This document shows, piece by piece, positions 10,849 through 20,273 of a DNA stretch of 32,877 nucleotides; the stretch's first letter is position 1; every line of letters begins with the position of its first letter. The stretch lies in the NCBI GenBank assembly GCA_947453695.1, contig CANGHW010000052.1, positions 1 to 32,877 of the forward strand, in the 5' to 3' direction. A program made the position numbers and the translations under genes. The notes under the pieces are model-generated. The model was not told where the DNA came from. It saw only the letters and a list, made by a program, of their open reading frames with translations, and ran no database searches. This DNA comes from Opitutia bacterium. GTDB lineage: Bacteria > Verrucomicrobiota > Verrucomicrobiia > Opitutales > Opitutaceae.

Positions 10849-11286
10849 ATGAAAAAACTGCCCTTCTGCACCCTTATCGCCGGTGCACTCTTCGTTATCC
10901 TCGGCACGTTCGCTCTTCTTCGCCTCACCCCGCGCCCCGAACCTTTCGGTCTCCTGTTCCCGTTGTTGTGGGATCTCGCGATGGTCGGCATTGGCCTCGG
11001 CATCGTATTCCGTTGTGAATGCGCCCGCAAAGCCGGCATGGCGTGGAGCATCTTCTGCATCATCGCCTCGCTCGTTGTCGGCGCTTCCTCGATTTTCTGG
11101 TCGCTCGCCCAAAGCGATTCCTCGCTCGGTCGGGACCGGCTGGTATTTCTCGGCGTGACCATCGCCTTCGGTGTTCTCTTCGGCCTTTGGCAACTTCTCG
11201 TCCTCCGCAGCACTGCCACCCGCGAATGGACCGCTGCCTCGGCCCGCCCGCGCGTCGAGCCGGTGCATCAGCCTCATCCGCATTGA
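10849..11286 (+). CDS. small four-helix membrane protein, unknown function
   Basis: A 145-residue integral membrane protein with four hydrophobic helices: about 5-24 (CTLIAGALFVILGTFALL), 33-52, 62-82 (SIFCIIASLVVGASSIFW) and 98-118. The open frame extends back to 10735, but ATG at 10849 gives a normal positive N-terminus (MKKLPFC) and needs no odd leader. The C-terminal tail is hydrophilic with several Arg, Pro and His. I do not recognise a family. A terminator-like hairpin follows, so the gene is probably a single transcription unit between the signalling cluster and the pectate lyase. Confidence 0.7.
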   Translation: MKKLPFCTLIAGALFVILGTFALLRLTPRPEPFGLLFPLLWDLAMVGIGLGIVFRCECARKAGMAWSIFCIIASLVVGASSIFWSLAQSDSSLGRDRLVFLGVTIAFGVLFGLWQLLVLRSTATREWTAASARPRVEPVHQPHPH

Positions 11287-11312
11287 GCCGGAGCTGAGTT
11301 TACGGATCCCAC

Positions 11313-11334
11313 GCGGACGCCTGTCCGCCTTTTT
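11313..11334 (+). terminator. probable terminator before pectate lyase gene
   Basis: A perfect 6-base stem gcggac / gtccgc (11313-11318 and 11323-11328) with a 4-base loop is followed by C and five T (11330-11334). It ends the small membrane protein gene and lies 43 bases before the pectate lyase ATG. Its form is like that of the other GC-rich palindromes in this window. Confidence 0.65.
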
Positions 11335-11376
11335 ACGCAACCGTGTCCGAGGACAGCCGTCTCGCCGCATCACCCA

Positions 11377-12615
11377 ATGCACTTCCGCGCCCTCGTTTTC
11401 GCCGCCCTCGTCGTCCCCGCTACGCTTTTCGCCAGCGTTATCGGCACCAACGTCCCTGCGCTCCCGCTTACCGCCGACCGCATCAACGCCCTCCCTGCTG
11501 CCGAGCAGCCCGCGTGGCACCGCTATCTTGCCCAGTCTCGAGCCAAATTCGCTATCGATCAGGCTACTCTAGCAACGGAACTCAAACAGGCCGGCCTCTC
11601 CGCTCCCCTTGTCCCCACCAAAGGCCGCGGCGTCCCCCTTAACCAACCTACCGCCTATTGGTCCGGCGCGGAGGCCGCCCGCATCGCCACCATCGTCGTC
11701 TCGTTTCAGACCCCTGCCGGCGGTTGGAATAAAAACACCAACCTCACCACCGCTCCGCGCCGCTTGGGTGAGCGCCACGGCCTCGAGGCCGGCTACGTCG
11801 GCACCATCGACAACGACGCCACCACGTCGCACCTCACCTTCCTCGCCAAAACCCTCACGGCCCAACCCACCGCCCCGGGCGCGGTTGCCTGGCGAGCCTC
11901 CTTCGACCGCGGCCTCGACTACCTCCTCGCCGCCCAATACCCCAACGGTGGCTGGCCCCAAGTCTACCCGCTCGAGGGCGGCTACCACGACGCCATCACG
12001 CTCAACGATGCCGCGATGATCCAAGTCATCGAAGTTCTCCGCGACGTCGCCGCCGGCACCGGGGATTTCGCCTTCACCTCTCCCACTCAACGCGAACTCG
12101 CCTCCCGCGCCTTCACGCGAGGACTCGATTGCCTCCTCGCCTGTCAACTGGTCGTCGCCGGTCGCCGCACAGTCTGGTGCCAGCAATACGACATGCTCAC
12201 CCGCGCCCCCGTCGGCGCCCGCAACTACGAAATGCCCTCCCAGGCCGCCGGTGAGAGCGCTGGCATTATGATGTTTCTCATGACGCTGCCGTCCCCGAGT
12301 CCAGCCGTGGTCGCCGCCGTCCACGCAGCCGCGGCTTGGTTTCAAAAGACGCCCCTCCGCGACGTCGCCTTCAAACCCGCCCCCGACGGCACCGGCCGCA
12401 AACTCCTCTCTGTCCCCGGCGCTGGTCCGATCTGGCCGCGCTACTCCGAACTCGGCACCGATCGCCCGATTTTCGGCGACCGCGATCTCACGATCCACGA
12501 CGACGTCGCCGAAATCTCCCTCGAACGCCGCAATGGCTACGGCTGGTTCGGCGACGGCCCCAAACGAGCCCTCGACCACTACACCAAGTGGGCCCGAGCC
12601 CACCCCGCCCAGTAA
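11377..12615 (+). CDS. pelA: secreted pectate lyase, family PL10
   Basis: A 412-residue protein with a signal peptide (hydrophobic core LVFAALVVPATLFA, cleavage near residue 19-20). PL10 hallmarks follow in order: GGWNKN (115-120), TIDNDAT (143-149), QYPNGGWPQVYP (about 187-198), TLNDAAM (208-214), WCQQYD, ARNYEMPS, ESAGIM and late WPRYSEL with RPIFGDRD. PL10 enzymes cleave polygalacturonate by beta-elimination in a calcium-dependent way; the family's Asp and Arg active-site residues should lie in the conserved blocks, but I have not assigned them individually. The length suits a single catalytic domain without a binding module. It is the only pectin enzyme in the window; the GH106-like enzyme is 15 kb away. 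Confidence 0.92.
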   Translation: MHFRALVFAALVVPATLFASVIGTNVPALPLTADRINALPAAEQPAWHRYLAQSRAKFAIDQATLATELKQAGLSAPLVPTKGRGVPLNQPTAYWSGAEAARIATIVVSFQTPAGGWNKNTNLTTAPRRLGERHGLEAGYVGTIDNDATTSHLTFLAKTLTAQPTAPGAVAWRASFDRGLDYLLAAQYPNGGWPQVYPLEGGYHDAITLNDAAMIQVIEVLRDVAAGTGDFAFTSPTQRELASRAFTRGLDCLLACQLVVAGRRTVWCQQYDMLTRAPVGARNYEMPSQAAGESAGIMMFLMTLPSPSPAVVAAVHAAAAWFQKTPLRDVAFKPAPDGTGRKLLSVPGAGPIWPRYSELGTDRPIFGDRDLTIHDDVAEISLERRNGYGWFGDGPKRALDHYTKWARAHPAQ

Positions 12616-16791: not shown

Positions 16792-17124
16792 ATGATCGTC
16801 ATCCGTCGCATGGTCGACCGCCGCCGCGCCTATACCGGCATTTTCCTGAAAGGGGAGCCACCTAAAATTTTCCCGACGTCTGACGCCGAACACGCCCGCA
16901 TCCTCCAAGTCTACAAACAGGACCGCCCCCACGAGGGCATCCTCAACGACTTCACCGACGATTTTCCCCCGCCTGATGCCCCGTCCCCGCCCCGCGTCAA
17001 ACCCGCCAAACCGGCCGTGACAAAGCCCGTTCCGAAAAAACCGGTTGCCCGGAAAAAAGTTACCTACCCCACCGGTCCCCTCTGGCTGGTGCTTGTCCCC
17101 AGCGAAACGAAGAGCGAGCAGTAA
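16792..17124 (+). CDS. small basic Pro-rich protein, unknown function
   Basis: A 110-residue protein without signal peptide or membrane helix. The first 60 residues are mixed (IVIRRMVDRRRAYTGIFLKGEPPKIF, then a helix with AEHARILQVYKQ and an acidic stretch NDFTDDFPPPD). Residues about 68-92 are Lys/Pro-rich (VKPAKPAVTKPVPKK) and probably disordered, as in DNA- or RNA-binding tails. The end is hydrophobic (GPLWLVLVP). I do not recognise a family. It lies 100 bases before the SeqA-like gene in the same direction and could be co-transcribed. Confidence that it is a real gene is moderate; it rests on codon use and on the well-spaced ATG. Confidence 0.55.
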   Translation: MIVIRRMVDRRRAYTGIFLKGEPPKIFPTSDAEHARILQVYKQDRPHEGILNDFTDDFPPPDAPSPPRVKPAKPAVTKPVPKKPVARKKVTYPTGPLWLVLVPSETKSEQ

Positions 17125-17224
17125 GCCTCTTTTCCACCGCGACGCACCCGCTGTTCGTCGCAATCCGTCCGCGCTTCGTCGCCGGCGCGTCGCCCCGACC
17201 GCCCCGACCGGTTTGCCTGCGCGC

Positions 17225-17737
17225 ATGAAAAAAATCGAAGTCAGCGATCAGGTCTACCACGCCCTCCAGCATCTCGCCTCCGGTTTTCACCGCACCCCGG
17301 ACGAGGTGCTCGCCAACCTGCTCAATCTTCCCACCGCCAGCGCCGATGCCGCCGAGCCCATCGCCGCCTTCGTCCTCAGCTCGGACTTTCGGTCGAAATT
17401 CACCGACGCTGACAAATACCTCGCCCTCCTCGGCTGGGTATCTATCCGCCACGCCGAAGAATTCGCCGAGTTCATCCGGAGTCAGGGTGGTCGCCGGCGT
17501 TTCCTCGGCCTCACCCGCGAAGAAGTTGTCGAGACCTGCCGCCACAATCAGGCCCGCCAGATCGCCGGCACTCCCTACTGGGCGATCATGAACATCGATA
17601 CGGCCACGAAGCGCCGTTTCCTCTCCCGTCTGCTCGAATTTATCGGCTACCGCGACGAGGTCATCGAATTCGTCTGCGGCGCCATCGGCATGAAACGCGC
17701 CGCCCGCCACCGCCGCTTCGCCGCCCTCGTGGCGTAA
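17225..17737 (+). CDS. SeqA-like protein (replication initiation modulator family)
   Basis: A 170-residue protein whose opening, MKKIEVSDQVYHAL, matches the SeqA ribbon-helix-helix domain pattern MK-x-IEV-x-D-x-x-Y. Its C-terminal half follows the SeqA DNA-binding domain: FVLSSDF, then GGRRR (89-92), then AGTPYWAIMNIDT (114-126), then a helix and VCGAIG (150-155). In E. coli SeqA these positions are GRTR (R116, T117, R118), PGTPYWVITNTNT (N150, N152) and VCGTI. Thus R116, R118 and N150 are kept (R90, R92, N123), while T117 is Arg91 and N152 is Asp125. SeqA binds hemimethylated GATC, sequesters oriC and delays replication. SeqA is known mainly from Gammaproteobacteria with Dam methylase; the comparison rests on recall, not on a search. 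An in-frame opening extends to 17045, but the ATG at 17225 matches the family start. Confidence 0.8.
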   Translation: MKKIEVSDQVYHALQHLASGFHRTPDEVLANLLNLPTASADAAEPIAAFVLSSDFRSKFTDADKYLALLGWVSIRHAEEFAEFIRSQGGRRRFLGLTREEVVETCRHNQARQIAGTPYWAIMNIDTATKRRFLSRLLEFIGYRDEVIEFVCGAIGMKRAARHRRFAALVA

Positions 17738-17804: not shown

Positions 17805-18926
17805 TTATCTCACGCGCGTAAACAGCCACAACGCCACCCCCGCCATGCCTAGGTTCGGCAACCACGCCGCCACTGCCGGCTCGACGATCTCCTTCGTCGC
17901 CAGCGACGCCGCGAAATTGGTCAGCACGTAATAGAAGAAAAACAAACCGATCGACTTCGACACGCCTACCGCCGGGTTCACCCGCACGCCCGTCACGGAA
18001 AACGGGATCGCCATCGCGATCACCAGCAGCGGCACCACCGTGTCCGCGATCAGCCCAAAATAGCGCACCGCATACGGCACCGACTTCGGGTTCTTCTCAC
18101 TCTCCAGATACCCAATCAACTCCTGCAACTCGTGCAGCGAGAGGTCTACCGGCCGCCGGTCGATCAATAGCATCAACTCCGGGTCTTCGTGATATGTCTC
18201 GCGCACCTTCATCACAAAGGGCACCGACCCGATCAGCTCGCCCGACTCCGGCGCAAACGTGAGCTCCCGTCCGTCCTTAAACACCCACGCTCGCTTGCCC
18301 ACGTCCAACCAAGCCTCGCTCGCCACCAGCCGCCCGGTCTCTCGTCGCTTTGCATCCAACTCCGACACCGCCACCCCATAGCCATGCTTGGTGAAGCGGC
18401 TATACCGGTTGAAAAACCACATGCGCTGCTCACGCGGATTATCGAAGGCCACGCTGTAGGATGCTCCCACGCGATCGTGCGACAGCGCCTTTGCATCACG
18501 GGAAAACTGCAGTTCGTCGCGCAATGACCGCGATTCCTCCACCGACCACGGCACTACCGTCGCATTAAGCCACCAGGTCAGCGCACAACAGCCCAAGCCC
18601 ACCGCCCACACGGGCGCCGTGAGGCGGATAAAACCCACGCCCGCCGCCCGCATGGCCGTAAGTTCATTTGCCCGATGCAGTTTCCCGAGCGTAAACATCA
18701 GCGAGATCAACAACGCCACCGGCAACACCAGCGCTAGAAAGCTCGGTAACGTCACCGCCAGGTATTTCCACAATACCAGCCCGCGCGCCCCCAGTTCCCG
18801 CAGCGACCGAAAATCATCGTAGAGCACCTGCACCACCAGCAACCCGCAGGTCGCGAGCAGCACCAACGCCAAAATTTGCAGCCACTCGCGCAAGAGATGT
18901 CGGTCAAAGGTGTTCAACCCCGGCAT
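17805..18926 (-). CDS. LptF/LptG-type permease (YjgP/YjgQ family)
   Basis: A 373-residue inner-membrane protein of the family that, with LptB, extracts lipopolysaccharide from the inner membrane. Three N-terminal helices (about 14-34, 54-75 and 100-120) include the family region KLHRANELTAMRAAGV, the loop that meets the ATPase. A periplasmic beta-jelly-roll domain covers about 125-275. Three C-terminal helices follow (VVPLLVIAMAIPFSVTG, IGLFFFYYVLTNFAASL, NLGMAGVALWLF). I chose MPGLNTFDRHLLREWL as the start because it matches family N-termini. An in-frame ATG at 19052 with GGAGGAGG very close by would add 42 mostly basic residues and remains possible. No partner lptF/lptG or lptB gene is nearby. 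It is divergent from the ABC operon. Confidence 0.88.
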   Translation of the reverse strand: MPGLNTFDRHLLREWLQILALVLLATCGLLVVQVLYDDFRSLRELGARGLVLWKYLAVTLPSFLALVLPVALLISLMFTLGKLHRANELTAMRAAGVGFIRLTAPVWAVGLGCCALTWWLNATVVPWSVEESRSLRDELQFSRDAKALSHDRVGASYSVAFDNPREQRMWFFNRYSRFTKHGYGVAVSELDAKRRETGRLVASEAWLDVGKRAWVFKDGRELTFAPESGELIGSVPFVMKVRETYHEDPELMLLIDRRPVDLSLHELQELIGYLESEKNPKSVPYAVRYFGLIADTVVPLLVIAMAIPFSVTGVRVNPAVGVSKSIGLFFFYYVLTNFAASLATKEIVEPAVAAWLPNLGMAGVALWLFTRVR

Positions 18927-19133
18927 GAAACGACCCGCCCCCCACCACGGAAAGCCCTTTTCCAAAAAAACTCCTCCCCGCGGAACCATTCGCCGCCCCA
19001 TCGCGCCGGGACTTTTGTGTCTCCCGCGCTTGAAAATCCCTGCGCCAAGCATTCCTCCTCCGGCTAACAGATTGGTTGAAAACCTGCTTACCCTCCCCTT
19101 GGCTCCGCGACCGTTCCCTCTCCTCGCCACCCT

Positions 19134-20273
19134 ATGATTCCCGCCCTCCGGTCGCTCGCTGCGCGTTTCGCCCCCTTCCTTTCCGCCGCGCTGTTCACGA
19201 CTGCCGCCCTCGCCCAAGACCCGATCAAGCTCGGCGAATTCGCCTCCCTCACCGGCAAGGAAGCCGTTTTTGGTCAAAACGTCACCAAAGGCACTCGCCT
19301 CGCCGTCGAAGAGACCAACGCTGCCGGTGGTGTGCTGGGTCGCAAGATTGAGCTCATCACCGAAGACGACCAATCGAAGCCCGGCGAGTCCGCCACCGTC
19401 GTCAAAAAGCTTATCTCCCGCGAAAAAGTCGCGGTCGTCCTAGGGGAGATCACCTCTGGTCGCACGCTTGAGGCCGCCCCTATCGCCCAAGCAGCCAAGG
19501 TTCCGCTCATCTCCCCGGGAGCCACCAACGTCGAGGTCACCACCAAGGGAAATTATATTTTCCGCACCTGCTTCATCGACGATTTCCAAGGCACCGTCAT
19601 GGCCAAGTTCGCCCGGGAATCCCTTCGCCTCAGTAAGGTCGCGATCCTTTCCTCCGTTTCCTCGGCTCAAAGCGTCGGCCTCGCGAAATACTTCCGCGAG
19701 CGCTTCACCTCCGGCGGCGGCACCATCTCCGCCGATCAAAAATATGGCGAGGGCGATAAAGACTTCCGTGCTCAACTCACCGCCATCAAGGCCGCCGGCG
19801 CGGATGGTATCTTCATCCCCGGTTACTACGCCGAGGCCGCGCTGATCTGTAAACAAGCCCGCGACCTCGGGATGAAGCTCCCGCTCCTTGGTGTCGATGG
19901 TTGGGAATCGCCGGATCTTATCGCCATTGCCGGCACCGCCGCCGAGGGCTGCTACATCAGCACGCATTACTCCCCTGAAAGCCAAAATCCCGTCGTGGTC
20001 GCGTTCAACGAACGCTTCCAGAAGCGCTGGGGCGTCGCCTCCAACGCCCTCTCGGTCCTGGGCTACGATACCGCCATGCTGGCGATCGACGCCATCCGCC
20101 GTGCCGGCACAACCGACGGCAGCAAGGTCCGCGACGCCCTCGCTGCGACGAAGAATTTTCCGGCGGTCACCGGCTCGATCACCTTCGATGCTCAACGCAA
20201 TCCCACCAAGTCAGCCGTCGTGCTCACCGTGAAGAATGGCAAGTTCACCTTCGTCCAAGACGTAAACCCCTAA
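19134..20273 (+). CDS. livK: branched-chain amino acid-type binding protein 1
   Basis: A 379-residue periplasmic binding protein of the LivJ/LivK family, first of four in a row. The signal peptide cleaves near ALA/QD (27). Family pattern: PIKLGEFASLTGKEAVFGQ, GGVLGRKIELITEDDQSKPGES, then the ligand-site block GEITSGRTLEAAPIAQAAKVPLISPGATN. The SPGATN phrase is the canonical LivJ-like segment that contacts the amino acid. The C-lobe has PGYYAEAALICKQARDLG and GVDGWESPDL. It delivers ligand to LivH/LivM, encoded downstream. It is closest to binding protein 2 (shared FIDDFQGTVMAKFA and PGYY). No clear Shine-Dalgarno precedes the ATG. Confidence 0.92.
   Translation: MIPALRSLAARFAPFLSAALFTTAALAQDPIKLGEFASLTGKEAVFGQNVTKGTRLAVEETNAAGGVLGRKIELITEDDQSKPGESATVVKKLISREKVAVVLGEITSGRTLEAAPIAQAAKVPLISPGATNVEVTTKGNYIFRTCFIDDFQGTVMAKFARESLRLSKVAILSSVSSAQSVGLAKYFRERFTSGGGTISADQKYGEGDKDFRAQLTAIKAAGADGIFIPGYYAEAALICKQARDLGMKLPLLGVDGWESPDLIAIAGTAAEGCYISTHYSPESQNPVVVAFNERFQKRWGVASNALSVLGYDTAMLAIDAIRRAGTTDGSKVRDALAATKNFPAVTGSITFDAQRNPTKSAVVLTVKNGKFTFVQDVNP

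Follow-up and report, generated by a model that had tools for sequence, protein, structure and literature searches.

A SeqA-family gene in the Opitutaceae

The window, by which we mean the whole 32,877-nt stretch of DNA analysed here, carries a gene for a SeqA-family protein that is preceded by a short reading frame and two predicted regulatory elements and is followed by a permease gene on the opposite strand:

16792-17124, forward strand: 110-aa protein without a Pfam match, upstream of the SeqA-like gene
17154-17183, forward strand: direct repeats TTCGTCGCA-N12-TTCGTCGCC with a period of 21 bp, at -71 and -50; predicted site of a LytTR-family regulator
17198-17212, forward strand: predicted operator with half-sites ACCG (17198-17201) and ACCGGT (17207-17212), located 18 bp ahead of the ATG within what is presumed to be the core promoter
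17225-17737, forward strand: SeqA-family protein, 170 aa, ATG start
17805-19373, reverse strand: LptF/LptG permease (PF03739, 198 bits, domain at residues 158-520), downstream; its start was over-extended by the ORF caller

E. coli SeqA delays the re-copying of DNA by reading methylation marks; it is the standard example of a protein that reads hemimethylated DNA, and it is regarded as tied to Dam. Homology of the window protein to SeqA is near certain from its sequence. The first-pass annotation had proposed it from a set of SeqA motifs, which the protein does carry, and the profile search that it recommended agrees: the SeqA C-terminal domain PF03925 matches with 54.6 bits (E 1.3e-14, cut-off 25.5), and phmmer against the PDB aligns residues 1-154 of 170 with E. 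coli SeqA (3fmt, E 4e-12) at about 23% identity. The top PDB matches are all SeqA chains (3fmt, 1lrr, 1iu3, 1j3e and 3sk7, the last of which we take to be V. cholerae SeqA), and a profile of 46 family sequences (A3) recovers 3fmt at 1.1e-15 over positions 1-153, the Vibrio-type SeqA 3sk7 at 1e-11 and the N-terminal domain 1xrx at 0.014.

The layout comprises an N-terminal SeqA-N or ribbon-helix-helix-like part (residues 1 to about 35), a short linker and a C-terminal SeqA domain (48-152), the same domain order as in E. coli and V. cholerae SeqA (PF17206 followed by PF03925; PDB 3fmt, 1lrr, 3sk7), with which it shares a C-terminal domain above the curated cut-off and the tryptophan of the GTxYWxI core (W119), present in 48 of 48 family sequences. 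Unlike E. coli SeqA, the window protein has a linker about 26 residues shorter and an added C-terminal tail, and it carries F and P in place of the oligomerisation residues I21 and A25. Its N-terminal domain alone matches SeqA_N (PF17206) weakly (E 0.12, under the 23-bit cut-off); the best of five family members scanned, L081, reaches 20.3 bits (3.3e-4), and E. coli SeqA, the positive control, gives 1.2e-24. Because the protein scores 59.8 bits with the NCBIfam SeqA equivalog NF008389, well short of the 185 required, we treat it as a member of the family and do not call it an orthologue. The gene is single-copy in its own genome of 6.38 Mb.

Distribution, descent and selection

The unusual taxonomic place of the protein, raised in the first-pass annotation, is evident from genome sampling. 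Among 387 Verrucomicrobiota genomes drawn, PF03925 was found in 15, 14 of them in the window's family (Opitutaceae) and one (G131) in another family of the same order, and the family profile matches 41 of 150 Opitutaceae genomes, of which G390 gives a partial match and four (G160, G480, G461 and G462) match by short fragments only. These short copies, two of them in the window's genus, are decaying or cut; three of seven genomes of that genus match, the window's own included and two by fragments, a pattern suggestive of copies still being lost or of broken contigs. Two genomes, G271 and G473, have two SeqA-like matches each, and the G271 copies lie at different places and on two separate tree branches. 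Forty-eight SeqA-like loci were recovered from named GTDB contigs, with titles that include Opitutaceae, Opitutia, Opitutus, Lacunisphaera, Didemnitutus, Oleiharenicola and plain Verrucomicrobia; the records of L097 and L104 are titled Vicinamibacteria (Acidobacteriota) and represent transfer or misbinned contigs.

A tree of 56 rows contains one split, with support 100/99, that sets 50 Opitutaceae-type rows apart from five gammaproteobacterial SeqA proteins and the G131 protein, and the second SeqA lineage suggested earlier thus emerges as a single long-branch clade. The two sides are separated by 2.6 changes per column across the midpoint root. The G131 protein sits on an end branch of 3.08, the tool warns of long branches, and the placement of this protein is unsure. 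The Opitutaceae clade is under purifying selection: of 13 pairs of relatives, 11 have dN/dS values of 0.06-0.19, in several of which dS approaches or exceeds 1, and the other two pairs are saturated.

The neighbourhood argues for inheritance in place. A relative of LptF/LptG lies on the opposite strand, at most 2.4 kb downstream, in 28 of 49 loci (E. coli and V. cholerae SeqA have pgm as neighbour instead), which suggests that many copies were inherited in situ rather than being mobile. Relatives of the 110-aa protein are found upstream in 17 of 48 loci, the window counted, at distances of 43 to 1156 bp. We rejected origins from mobile elements as follows: the window protein has no match in 50,697 phage records, E. 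coli SeqA likewise having none there; profile A3 finds no relative in viral contigs; and the 15 matching records of the plasmid collection are every one gammaproteobacterial by name, with 20-25% tblastn identity over 91% of the query (E. coli 23%). The literature searched, mostly outside subscription journals, yielded nothing on SeqA in Verrucomicrobia or Opitutaceae; entries for such proteins may already exist at Pfam or NCBI.

Altered GATC contacts and no association with Dam

PMC6225831 gives Arg116, Thr117, Arg118, Asn150 and Asn152 as the E. coli SeqA residues that contact GATC, and records T117 as absent from V. cholerae SeqA too. The contact loop is one residue shorter in the window protein than in E. 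coli SeqA and the alignments disagree there: phmmer pairs T117 with R91, as the first-pass annotation had it, whereas the gapless profile alignment to 3sk7 and a MAFFT alignment pair T117 with R90 and R118 with R91. Its other assignment, N152 to D125, is correct, and the changed contact residues recur across the family. Counted over 48 sequences on the R91-R118 pairing (the partial L104 left out), position 152 is Asp in 47; position 116 is mostly Ser or Gly, the Arg of E. coli being lost in most Opitutaceae proteins; position 117 is mostly Gly; position 118 (R91) is Arg in 39; and position 150 (N123) is Asn in 31, Thr in 13 and Ser in 4. The contact set that would mark a SeqA orthologue (R116, T117, R118, N150, N152) is not retained in full in this family. 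A patch opposite T135-x-P137-K138-H139 of E. coli SeqA, N108-x-A110-R111-Q112, is nearly invariant (47, 47, 44 and 43 of 48). The Opitutaceae branch keeps the SeqA domain order at the sequence level and is under purifying selection, with Asn152 replaced by Asp.

The Dam-like methylase for which the first-pass annotation advised a search was not found: PF02086 (Dam-fold) has no match in the window's own genome, which is 93% complete, and across 150 family genomes PF02086 occurs in 7 of 41 carriers of the SeqA-like gene versus 27 of 109 non-carriers (Fisher p 0.39, kinship ignored). Strong PF01555 matches are borderline more frequent in carriers (21 of 37 versus 41 of 109, p 0.054, kinship ignored and the four fragment genomes dropped; 22 of 41, p 0.095, with those four kept), and in 15 of the 37 carriers, the finished genomes G099 and G274 among them, no strong match to either PF02086 or PF01555 is present. 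MutH appears in two of the 150 family genomes (L269 and L270, in G433 and G075), both times beside a PF01555 methylase, so these may be restriction enzymes rather than mismatch-repair proteins.

GATC itself is neither enriched nor rare (observed/expected 0.87-1.03 in three genome samples and the window). The clusters near oriC or dnaA that the first-pass annotation suggested seeking are missing from five finished carrier genomes, with the origin assumed to lie beside dnaA: within 500 bp upstream of dnaA there are 0 GATC in G099, G091 and G122, 3 in G271 and 1 in G274 (where the dnaA start is unsure), and the window's own genome has 0 in the 260 bp upstream of dnaA on its contig. E. coli oriC, by comparison, has 11 (PMC6225831). 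GATC as the target is not supported, there being neither an excess nor a cluster upstream of dnaA, and the replication or origin control proposed in the first-pass annotation likewise finds no support in methylase occurrence or GATC content.

Host genomes of the SeqA-like gene, then, need not show a Dam-fold methylase, MutH or a GATC-rich origin. A true SeqA equivalent, one that recognises GATC left hemimethylated after the action of a different methylase and sequesters either the origin or newly made DNA, would fit the shared fold family, the frequent retention of the R118 and N150 equivalents and the presence in the window's genome of a PF01555 methylase that comes closest, under cut-off in both cases, to the NCBIfam models PRK11524 and CcrM; the near-universal N152 to Asp change, the carriers with neither methylase family and the ordinary GATC content nevertheless make it very unlikely. 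A methylation reader of changed specificity, directed at another modified motif made by another methylase, would account for a contact loop that is altered yet constrained, for the near-invariant patch and for the somewhat greater frequency of PF01555 in carriers, but neither PF02086 nor PF01555 supplies an obligate partner, and we consider this reading unlikely. The want of a Dam-fold match in the window's own genome and of Dam co-occurrence in the family, the near absence of MutH, the missing GATC cluster and the Asn152 to Asp change together indicate a SeqA-fold protein that is probably neither a reader of hemimethylated GATC nor an oriC sequestration protein, and that is likely uncoupled from Dam and GATC.

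A conserved half-site element in the presumed core promoter

We grouped the 48 loci, close relatives included, by protein and upstream sequence into A (window-like), B, C (with L105), D, E and F. Within 100 bp upstream of the start codon, 24 of 27 group A-C loci contain ACCGGT, against an expectation of 0.81 drawn from the remaining sequence of those loci; the main copies are at -18 to -28, and AACCGGTT occurs in 19 of the 27 versus 0.04 expected; the window itself has GACCGGTTT and not the complete AACCGGTT. ACCGGT is found in 0 of 12 D loci, 1 of 6 E loci (at -97) and 0 of 3 F loci, giving 25 versus 1.2 expected over all 48. The operator is missing from groups D and E (18 loci), whose proteins share a 0.83 branch, and from L075 and L076.

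When 23 A-C loci are aligned on ACCGGT, the hexamer itself being fixed by construction, the AC lying 9 bp upstream is kept (A in 23 of 23, C in 20 of 23), as is the T after the hexamer (23 of 23); a weaker TGT-like element appears at +12 to +14, and blocks further out are 27-37% identical. L074 (a near copy of L073), L075, L076 and L105 stand outside these 23. Related arrangements precede more distant copies: L105 has the inverted repeat ACAGGTTTAACCTGT, group F has ACCT-N7-AGGT within a TTGACA/TATAAT-type promoter (clearest in L088), and the second SeqA-like copy in G271 has ACCTG-N5-CAGGT upstream. ACCKGT half-sites thus sit close to the start in lineages whose neighbouring genes differ, and a subset of loci also has LytTR-format repeats further upstream.

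The site type follows the gene across different neighbourhoods and precedes both G271 copies, for which autoregulation is the simplest reading. The occurrence of ACCGGT or ACCTGT half-sites in the presumed core promoter of all lineages examined except the D/E branch, in differing genomic contexts, is to this extent a new feature that suggests autoregulation. Genome-wide counts of TNAACCGGTTNA show no clear enrichment over control in 16 A-C carrier genomes (65 sites versus 47), with 14 versus 13 in nine D/E genomes, 4 versus 8 in one F genome and 60 versus 74 in 22 non-carrier genomes; a large regulon for AACCGGTT is not seen. The tandem form ACCKGTNNNACCTGT occurs 4 times in 12 genomes versus 23 for its reversed control: two of the four lie at SeqA-like promoters, in G091 and in G271, a third elsewhere in G271 and the fourth before a permease gene in the non-carrier G018.

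These counts bear on whether the palindrome belongs to an unrelated regulator, with the SeqA-like protein acting elsewhere, for instance at the nucleoid or the replication fork. The AACCGGTT site resembles LacI-family operators, and the tandem form is present in a non-carrier genome and is not enriched over its control, as an unrelated regulator would allow. Against it stand the association of site type with the gene in different neighbourhoods, the presence of a site before both G271 copies and a half-site spacing of 9-10 bp that fits an oligomer, and we find this explanation improbable.

LytTR-format repeats upstream of the presumed promoter

The second element is a series of TTCGTCGCA repeats that recur every 21 bp, near -50, -71 and -93. 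Sites with at most two mismatches occupy positions -48 to -53 in 9 of 15 A loci, 5 of 12 D loci and 6 of 6 E loci, where the background is 0.0136 per slot, and in 0 of the 15 loci of groups B (7), C (4) and F (3) and L105; both repeat slots are filled in 5 A loci, 1 D locus and 1 E locus. PMC6193735 describes the sites of LytTR-family regulators as direct repeats of 9 bp, in most cases 12 bp apart, that lie a few bases ahead of the -35 element. The window has a perfect pair in this format (9-bp direct repeats, 12-bp gap, upstream of the presumed promoter).

Allowing two mismatches, the pair pattern occurs 23 times in the window's own genome versus 3 for the reversed control, and the SeqA-like promoter holds the sole zero-mismatch pair in its 6.38 Mb. 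The same is true of G271, and in G091 the promoter holds one of two. Of six carrier genomes, three have the pair at the SeqA-like promoter and three (G099, G122 and G274) do not; the non-carriers G088 (11 versus 0 control) and G393 (15 versus 1, one of them perfect) have pairs as well. Two candidates were discarded: TTCGTCGC repeats as sites of the SeqA-like protein itself, since they also precede a histidine kinase-LytTR operon and are present in non-carrier genomes, and a cluster of TTCGTCGC pairs at 2.076 Mb in G099, which lies inside repetitive Ala-rich reading frames.

On contig C36 of the window's genome (L226:8472-16277), imperfect TTCGTCGCA-type pairs lie upstream of a histidine kinase gene that stands before a LytTR response-regulator gene (L226:9627-10472), of a gene for a 248-aa protein and, farther off, of a TonB receptor gene, together a predicted LytTR regulon. 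The SeqA-like promoter resembles LytTR-family systems in repeat length, in gap, in the place of the repeats upstream of the presumed promoter and in the occurrence of similar repeats before a histidine kinase-LytTR operon of the same genome (format as in PMC6193735); it differs in that the SeqA-like gene is a predicted target and not a component of the system. Given those similar repeats before the kinase operon, the SeqA-like gene probably belongs to a LytTR regulon in the lineages that carry the repeats, and may so be under two-component control.

A possible self-controlling regulator with a SeqA fold

Taken together, the upstream sequences favour a DNA-binding protein that regulates its own gene and may respond to a signal; autoregulation and LytTR control are supported by conservation of the upstream sites, with mixed results from the genome-wide controls. 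Our preferred reading, to which we assign a probability of roughly one half, is a largely vertical Opitutaceae branch of the SeqA superfamily whose protein would bind its own half-sites independently of Dam and repress its own promoter, with a LytTR two-component system switching the gene on. In this scheme the protein would dimerise or oligomerise through its N-terminal ribbon-helix-helix-like part and so engage phased half-sites irrespective of Dam methylation. A SeqA-family gene may in this way have been repurposed as a self-controlling DNA-binding regulator, and we infer, with less confidence, that its role is that of a nucleoid-type protein or a regulator acting locally, not one of sequestering the origin.

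Ribbon-helix-helix autoregulators of the VapB, CopG and MetJ type offer a partial parallel. The window protein resembles them in its N-terminal MKxIEVSDxVYxxL pattern and in the short phased half-sites before its gene's own start, and relatives give weak VAPB_antitox and DUF7557 matches; it departs from them in that no ribbon-helix-helix family passes its cut-off, a SeqA C-terminal domain is present and there is no toxin partner among the neighbours.

A constrained SeqA lineage in genomes without a detected Dam would mean that the fold can be separated from the Dam mark, and it makes the Opitutaceae lineage a natural comparison for the residues that confer methylation sensing, with predicted DNA sites that are directly testable. 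On a broader and distinctly tentative view, SeqA would be one branch of a wider oligomerising DNA-binding family not tied to Dam, comprising a signal-controlled autoregulator with its own operator in the Opitutaceae and, in G131, a gene following dndA whose product may read or regulate sulfur-modified DNA.

Additional observations

The G131 gene (L183:9449-10120, reverse strand) is a second kind of SeqA-family gene, encoding 223 aa with a PF03925 score of 69.9 bits. Together with dndA, which it follows at a distance of 30 bp, it faces dndB-dndC-dndD-dndE on the other strand in a complete cluster for DNA phosphorothioation, and its product is possibly a reader or regulator of sulfur-modified DNA. 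PF02086 has no match in G131, and relatives of the protein (L002) were not found in viral contigs.

The tetranucleotide GTAC is almost absent from the window (1-32877; 1 versus 54.8 expected), from L185 of the same genome (0 versus 29.5 expected) and from L171, L178, L179, L182 and others, and it is at or below 0.1 of expectation in 18 of 48 named loci with the SeqA-like gene, the rest ranging up to 1.09. It is also at 0 in the stretches read of the non-carriers G018, G140 and G418, and we set GTAC aside as a target of the SeqA-like protein because its loss is not tied to SeqA. The loss looks stronger than usual restriction avoidance. On contig C56 of the window's genome, a PF01555 methylase overlaps a 215-aa reading frame without Pfam or plasmid-collection matches (L185:10366-11337 and 11249-11896, reverse strand); the two are possibly a restriction-modification pair, perhaps linked to the loss of GTAC.
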